64,000 nt of DNA from an uncultured Candidatus Melainabacteria bacterium. GTDB lineage: Bacteria; Cyanobacteriota; Vampirovibrionia; Gastranaerophilales; Gastranaerophilaceae. The stretch covers positions 1 through 64,000 of the forward strand of contig CANAJP010000001.1 in NCBI GenBank assembly GCA_947361615.1, in the 5' to 3' direction. Shown piece by piece: positions 30,065-31,292 of the stretch (position 1 is its first letter; every line of letters begins with the position of its first letter). Made by a program: the position numbers and the translations under genes. The notes under the pieces were generated by a model that saw only the letters and a list, made by a program, of their open reading frames with translations, was not told where the DNA came from and searched no databases.

Positions 30065-31292
30065 ATGAAAAAATCAAGAGCTGGAAACCTTTGTTATATG
30101 GGCCTGTTGAGCAGGGGGGGGGGGGCAAGACTTAGTTAGTGAAAAGTCGTTAATCAAGAGTCGAGAGTTCAATATGGAGAATAACCCCGCGCCAAGCGCA
30201 CATAACGAACTCCTCACTCCTTACTCTTCACTCCTCACTAAAAGTGCGTTCAACCACTCTTGTCATGCTGAACTTGTTTCAGCATCTGAGCGGCATCCAC
30301 ACACTGGTCTGCAGGCTGTCGGTCAACGAGTGGCATTCACTATGGCTGAAATATTGCTTTCCCTCACCATCATAGGAGTCGTTGCAGCGATTACTTTGCC
30401 AAGTTTGACGGGTAACATAAACGAGCGTACATGGAATACTCAACGCAAAGCACTTTACTCAAGAATGAGTCAAGCTATTTCACTAATGCCAGCACTAAAT
30501 GGTTATGGACAATACACCTATACAAACGGTGATGACGGAACAATCAGCACAGGCGTTGACACTGCTACTGAAACTTTTATAACAAGTGGACTCGCTAAAG
30601 TCCTGAAAATTAATAATATCTGCGATAATTCTCATTTACCCGACTGTGGAATTCCAAGTCGCATAACAACTTTAAATACTGGTAGTCTTGCAATACCTAC
30701 CACACTATTTGAATTAAATTCTATGTTTTATGAAACAATTAGCGATACAACAGAAACATTTCAAAACCCACAATCTTACGTTAATACAAAAGCTGTAGCT
30801 TTCGAAACACAAAATGGAGAGTCTATAGTTGCATACTACAATCCATATTGCACAGGCACTGCCGGAGAATATTACTGGAAATACAGTCAGGTACAAATGT
30901 GTGCGAATTTTATTTTCGATCTAAACGGCACTAAAGGCCCTAATACTGTTGGTAAAGATATCGGCTTTATGACAGCACTTTATTCAAGTAATTCTGTACT
31001 TGTAATGCCGCTTCCTGCAAATAAAGATCTGGATAGCGGAATGTATCAGACAATGGCTGCCAGTTCTTGTACCTCTTTTAACAATGAATACAGAGTACCT
31101 AACCGTGAAGAATTATATTCTATGTTTTACAATAAAGAACTCATTGGAAACATGATGCCAGATTATTACTGGTCAAGCACATTAATAGGTACTAGTAATG
31201 ACATAGAAGCTTTTAGGCTCTCATTTGAAAGTGGACGTGGCGGTAGAAGTCCCAAAACAATTAATGATTATGTTCGTTGTATTAAAAGATAA
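30065..31292 (+). CDS. pilin-like/DUF1566-like surface protein 2, out of frame at a G12 tract (in frame from ATG 30065 with G11 or G14)
   Basis: RBS AAAGGA and ATG 30065 upstream of the tract; no stop between tract and FTMAE motif in the restored frame; body 30174-31292 open. Confidence 0.72.
30114..30125 (+). repeat. poly-G tract (G12) in the leader of pilin-like gene 2
   Basis: Direct reading: agca-GGGGGGGGGGGG-caagact. Confidence 0.97.
30261..30287 (+). repeat. half-copy of the palindromic TIR element inside the pilin 2 leader
   Basis: TGTCATGCTGAACTTGTTTCAGCATCT, translated in frame as CHAELVSAS. Confidence 0.85.

Follow-up and report, generated by a model that had tools for sequence, protein, structure and literature searches.

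A poly-G tract as a probable on/off switch in a large family of pilin-like genes of an uncultured Gastranaerophilaceae bacterium

Introduction

The window analysed here is a stretch of 64,000 nucleotides (contig CANAJP010000001.1, positions 1 to 64,000, assembly GCA_947361615.1 of an uncultured Candidatus Melainabacteria bacterium of the Gastranaerophilaceae) and includes, at 30,065 to 31,292, a gene for a type IV pilin-like protein in which a run of 12 G (G12) separates the start codon from the body of the gene and leaves the two in different reading frames. The locus raises the question of whether such a gene is dead, wrongly assembled, wrongly delimited or constantly frameshifted, or whether the tract turns it on and off. 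An earlier note on this DNA had proposed a phase switch, and this proposal gained support from the open frames, the lack of other starts and orthologues that differ in tract length and state. The G12 tract is very probably an on/off translational phase-variation switch, that is, a slipped-strand contingency locus, of a lectin-tipped type IV pilin-like surface protein. The case is read from the DNA itself, namely from the architecture, the frame arithmetic, the lack of alternative starts, the tract and frame differences between orthologues and the turnover of the site.

Architecture of the locus

The features of the locus are as follows, positions being taken directly from the sequence unless stated otherwise.

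30004..30032, + strand: sigma-70-like promoter, TTGACA (30004-30009), 17-base spacer, TAAAAT (30027-30032)
30050..30055, + strand: ribosome-binding site (RBS), AAAGGA
30065..30113, + strand: ATG 30065 and upstream leader, MKKSRAGNLCYMGLLS plus one base
30114..30125, + strand: G12 tract, putative switch by slippage; lengths of 8, 11 or 14 G would be in frame
30126..30335, + strand: downstream leader; by frame reading, the pilin frame has 0 stops and the two others have 7 and 2
30336..31292, + strand: pilin-like body, FTMAEILLSLTIIGVVAAITLPSL helix and predicted Lcl-type C-type-lectin domain (profiles, structure model)
31317..31343, + strand: hairpin with T run, intrinsic-terminator-like, by reading of the sequence and not by a scan

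The frame of ATG 30065 reads MKKSRAGNLCYMGLLSRGGGARLS and meets a stop shortly after the tract, and the body frame, read from the CAAGACT at 30126, gives QDLVSEKSL...GQRVAFTMAEILL and is free of stops through FTMAEILLSL to 31292. The distance from the ATG to the body is 1 mod 3, i.e. one G in excess, and a tract of G11 or G14 would be in frame. Both the frame arithmetic of the earlier note and its description of promoter, RBS, ATG, tract and CAAGACT were borne out, the latter base for base. Runs of nine or more G occur twice in the window on both strands together, the expectation from shuffled windows being 0.01; the + strand has two runs of at least eight G in all.

According to the proposed mechanism, replication slippage would alter the length of the tract. 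At an in-frame length the ribosome would read through leader, glycine run and body and a prepilin would be made, whereas at any other length a ribosome starting at the ATG would stop a short way past the tract. Most of the approximately 100 genes of the repertoire would have a start codon and a poly-G tract of their own, the window gene being, as assembled, off by one extra G. Slippage would occur at some rate within the population, the products would be displayed at the surface and bind as lectins, and the gain from showing few variants at a time would be driven by immunity or niche.

A repertoire of tract genes

The genome to which the window belongs (1.83 Mb, 108 contigs, 95.6% complete, Candidatus Gastranaerophilus clade; hereafter the own genome) was covered by stretches around nearly all of its pilin matches and around tracts. 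The pilin body as query gave about 113 matches, with an FTMAE start in 91 copies, many of them cut by contig ends. Of the copies with 300 or more upstream bases, 55 show a run of G9-G14 ahead of the FTMAEILLSL body and six show no tract. One class of leaders is about 30 bases long (MKNKIVNICA-like) and followed mostly by G13; another is about 49 bases long (MKKSRAGNLCYMGLLS-like) and followed by G10-G12. The pattern TTGACN-16..18-TANNNT precedes 14 of 51 tract genes (0.3 in shuffles). The shared switch cassette suggested earlier holds as an arrangement of RBS, ATG, short leader, G(n) and body at about 55 loci; its CAAGACT flank marks one subclass, being found at five own loci while about 50 other pilin tracts are flanked differently. 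As a mark of the switch CAAGACT was rejected, given these five loci and its presence in a single one of the 59 other genomes searched. The surface repertoire thus comprises about 100 genes, whose members are probably switched on and off at random.

Two further members lie in the window:

22183..23221, + strand: paralogue with G11 tract at 22232-22242 (+1 of frame) and body from 22253
38279..39232, - strand: third pilin paralogue, with a conventional short leader and without poly-G run

The syntenic orthologue of the first in Candidatus (Ca.) Gastranaerophilus phascolarctosicola likewise has G11 and is at +1. Own contigs often break at pilin leaders (e.g., L027, L045, L076) and end in C/G runs of up to 54 C, perhaps an artefact of assembly or base calling at the tracts.

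Translation through the tract

If the tract is translated, the pilin frame should be open downstream of it. Of 38 genes with leaders longer than 60 bases, 34 have no stop in this frame between tract and body, the counts for the other two frames being 0 and 4, and the frame stays open although the leaders are rich in interspersed repeats. One repeat core, CTGAACTTGTTTCAG, is present in the window at 30268-30282, 49560-49574, 63127-63141 and 63250-63264; with 50 exact copies in the genome, it lies in one orientation or the other within several pilin leaders and leaves the pilin frame unbroken. In 42 of the 43 out-of-frame own genes the pilin frame offers no alternative start with an RBS, and in none of these 43 does an ATG after the tract have one. 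An in-frame M...GGGG...FTMAE leader is present in 21 of the 120 best database relatives. As in the pilC genes of Neisseria, the simple repeat lies between start and body inside the 5' coding region, and one frame gives the full-length product while the others stop early.

Orthologues and turnover of the site

Tract length and frame also differ between congeners at sibling loci, again as in pilC. Own locus L044 has G10 and is on, whereas its syntenic counterpart L145 in genome G003 has G11 and is off, with 88% identity over 1.4 kb of upstream flank; own L030 (G13, off) corresponds to L115 of G003 (G15, on), and L219 of G002 (G12, on) to L221 of G004 (G14, off). The body encoded by L205 of G004 (G13, off) is 99% identical to the in-frame database protein P0020, with which it shares the post-tract leader. 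Four pairs of database proteins (P0089/P0074, P0047/P0098, P0057/P0114 and P0003/P0021) have bodies 98-100% identical and starts placed before the tract in one member and after it in the other; such pairs fit strain-level switching, though other causes are possible.

The window pilin itself has no homologue above 63% identity among the database hits and congeners listed, and the history of its tract was therefore judged by its site and siblings alone. The site (29961-31969) lies between genes that we take, from reading their sequence, to be YtxH-like (29692-29961) and RpoD-like (31969-32994). In Ca. G. phascolarctosicola (G005) it is occupied by another pilin, 52% identical, whose G11 is in frame; G003 has no pilin there and G002 a degraded one. 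These differing contents, together with the lack of a close homologue, argue for fast turnover of the repertoire. Two small helix-turn-helix-like genes lie 3' of the window pilin (about 31362-31610, - strand, and 31731-31937, + strand).

Frame states and the +1 bias

Frame states were scored in own genes whose ATG follows an RBS and whose pilin frame is open (n=48): five are in frame, 40 have one G too many (+1) and three one G too few (-1), on tract lengths that are the consensus of mostly metagenomic assemblies, in which homopolymers of G12-13 may be off by one in single cases. The offset of +1 occurs, depending on leader class, at tract lengths 11, 12, 13 and 14, and therefore does not reflect one favoured length. 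A congener, the metagenome-assembled genome (MAG) CAMUPF, is similarly biased (3 in frame, 16 at +1, 1 at -1), whereas Ca. G. phascolarctosicola (16/18/14) and the G003 MAG (19/13/9) are distributed among all three frames and G028, of another genus, has 8 of 10 tract genes at -1; the +1 offset is therefore not a fixed, programmed property of the family. The identical offset of the two window tracts, from which the earlier note had argued against chance, is indeed no coincidence in view of the 40 own genes that share it, but it is not universal across genomes. Taken as a whole, the family shows the mix of frames typical of phase-variable loci, while an individual genome may lean strongly towards the off state.

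Several observations weigh against the phase switch. Unbiased slippage would not predict the strong +1 bias seen in the own genome and in one congener, for which a slippage bias at G12 combined with selection against the on state is one possible cause. All lengths come from draft-assembly consensus, and some assemblies have N inside tracts. The strain-level on/off pairs are suggested by protein predictions. Finally, the prepilin peptidase (PF01478) was not found in the own draft and is present in eight of eight relatives, an absence explained most simply by incompleteness of the draft.

Alternative explanations

A constant +1 might itself be functional, with copies kept one deletion away from expression, or leaking through slippage of RNA polymerisation or the ribosome, so that few of about 100 are shown; this we consider rather unlikely. 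Programmed frameshifting or transcriptional slippage would hold the tract one base out of frame and let a fixed fraction of transcripts or ribosomes slip back, giving constant low expression instead of heritable on/off states. It would account for the offset shared by 40 of 48 own genes and 16 of 20 tract genes of one congener across lengths 11-14, but it fits poorly with the spread over frames in Ca. G. phascolarctosicola and G003, with the mostly -1 genes of G028 and with orthologues that differ in state; moreover, the tRNA-Gly anticodons seen are UCC and GCC only, CCC being unseen among the 30 of 37 tRNAs examined. We regard it as very unlikely. A +1 suppressor tRNA-Gly was also considered, and nothing unusual was noticed among these tRNAs.

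A small probability is likewise given to the out-of-frame copies being mostly dead, either as silent pseudogenes or as an archive of recombination donors for a few expressed loci. The majority of own copies lie out of frame; some bodies have 90% identity between species despite differing leaders and flanks, which suggests shuffling; and at the window site G003 lacks a pilin and G005 has a different one. Against this, out-of-frame copies keep RBS, ATG and open leaders and bodies in the pilin frame, and third-position identity in the N-terminal part is 0.45-0.50, no higher than in the rest of the gene; the N-terminal conservation therefore reflects selection on the protein and not recent gene conversion, which was ruled out as the source of the identical N-termini. 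The silent promoterless copies and DNA-level homogenisation typical of antigenic variation by gene conversion at Neisseria pilE were not found among the own copies: in those with tracts an RBS precedes the ATG, often with a match to the promoter pattern further upstream, and third-position identity is not raised in the conserved N-terminal part.

A sequencing or assembly artefact, with one G added by the assembly to tracts that are really in frame, would agree with the uniform +1 of this draft and with the low-complexity G/C runs at its contig ends. Independent assemblies, however, show the same tracts at differing lengths, and among the own non-pilin tract genes with long bodies four of seven are in frame (L246, L254, L257, L259; G13-G14). 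A systematic extra G from the assembler is not supported by these non-pilin tracts, and the artefact is highly improbable. A true start after the tract, here ATG 30174, which would leave the tract in an untranslated leader, is scarcely credible: it is in frame and would give 372 residues in the same form as database protein P0001, but it has no RBS, no start exists between tract and body in 18 of the 43 out-of-frame own genes and in nearly all of those in G003 and Ca. G. phascolarctosicola, and the in-frame database proteins begin upstream of the tract.

Tracts of G11-G14 were also seen in several large non-pilin genes (L249, L250, L253, L254, L257, L259), some just after the start, e.g., MNLTITPNFTQYKNSSNPNVQSNMC-GGGGG. 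At L246 (G000:C2:65000-67200, run near 66074, - strand) a G14 lies in frame inside a long gene, presumably, from reading its sequence, for a glycero- or glycosylphosphotransferase. Phase variation may thus extend to surface polysaccharide.

The predicted protein and pilus machinery

The class III signal was found in the form A/G-FTMAE, with a small residue before F, E5 and a hydrophobic helix at 3-50; in an alignment of 31 relatives F1-P22 is invariant, including F1 and E5, and the remainder very variable. The window gene falls under the curated cut-offs of PF07963 and TIGR02532, and its sibling at 22250 barely exceeds the latter (16.5 vs 16.3). For Lcl_C (PF07603) the score of 30.9 bits is below the gathering cut-off of 34.9, and the protein was not filed as a member. 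An AlphaFold model (predicted local distance difference test score, pLDDT, 86) has a long N-terminal helix and a globular part, for which the sole PDB match with E<0.001 is the C-terminal domain of Legionella Lcl (8q4e, E 1e-4), followed by C-type lectins. The protein therefore models as a pilin helix joined to an Lcl-type C-type-lectin domain. Lcl is reported to recognise sulphated glycosaminoglycans (PMC11162425), and by analogy these pilin-like proteins may bind glycans. ATPases of the T2SSE type are encoded in the own genome, one of them in the window (51032-52111).

Distribution

Across 15 genomes, the more pilins there are, the more tracts are found (Spearman 0.81). Pilin matches number 100-129 and runs of at least ten G 87-111 in five of the six congeners, against 18 pilin matches and no such run in G006, of the same genus; there the repertoire and the switch are lost together. 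Genomes of the order outside the family have at most three runs. The same layout with divergent FTLAEVL pilins is seen in G028 (MKNLFRSLD-G10-TGVVSFSNNRKAFTLAEVL). The combination of poly-G and FTMAE was not found in viral contigs. The JAMPIJ01 records (L098 and others) belong to a MAG labelled 'Fusobacterium sp. NALB_7963_5', in which the pilin family is also present. The flanks there show up to 92% identity with the own genome, and over 2.6 kb the MAG is identical to the congener G003; its label is probably wrong.

Comparison with known systems

PilC is a pilus-associated adhesin or assembly protein and not a pilin, and the opa genes encode outer-membrane barrels and carry a pentameric CTTCT repeat instead of G. 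Neisseria pilC1 and pilC2 carry a poly-G tract of 9-15 towards the 5' end of the coding region, with switching by frame shifts and lengths that differ between strains (PMC5320596); the likeness lies in a translational poly-G switch within the 5' coding region of a pilus-associated protein, and the difference in two genes there and about 55 copies in pilin-like lectin proteins here. The opa genes (11 per strain, each switching through a 5' repeat; PMC5320596) resemble the present family as many independently switched paralogues of one surface adhesin, but are several times fewer. Campylobacter likewise has a small genome with dozens of poly-G tracts, 81 putative ones in one isolate of C. jejuni subsp. 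doylei (PMC6321876), spread over many gene families where here they fall mostly in one. The vlhA genes of Mycoplasma gallisepticum form a large surface-protein family with repeat-based switching, there by a GAA repeat in the promoter region that acts on transcription (PMC6258824). Legionella Lcl, the best structural match predicted for the C-terminal part of the pilin, is a collagen-like adhesin and shares 22% identity with it.

No report of phase variation in Gastranaerophilales or Melainabacteria was found in the open-access papers searched, and one may exist elsewhere; the available part of a paper on a termite melainabacterium mentions type IV pili and no comparable poly-G switching. The mechanism is known from pilC- and opa-like systems; its scale, the protein and the host lineage are unreported in the open-access literature searched.

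Significance

If the phase-switch reading is true, this family would be among the largest single-family poly-G switch sets, in an uncultured, non-photosynthetic cyanobacterial lineage of the gut. A large proportion of the database entries for these proteins would then have been given wrong starts or been split by gene callers, and much of the strain variation in such genomes would consist of homopolymer lengths, which short-read assemblies blur. About 100 lectin-tipped pilins in 1.8 Mb would offer a testable idea of how a commensal meets host immunity, phages or varied glycans.
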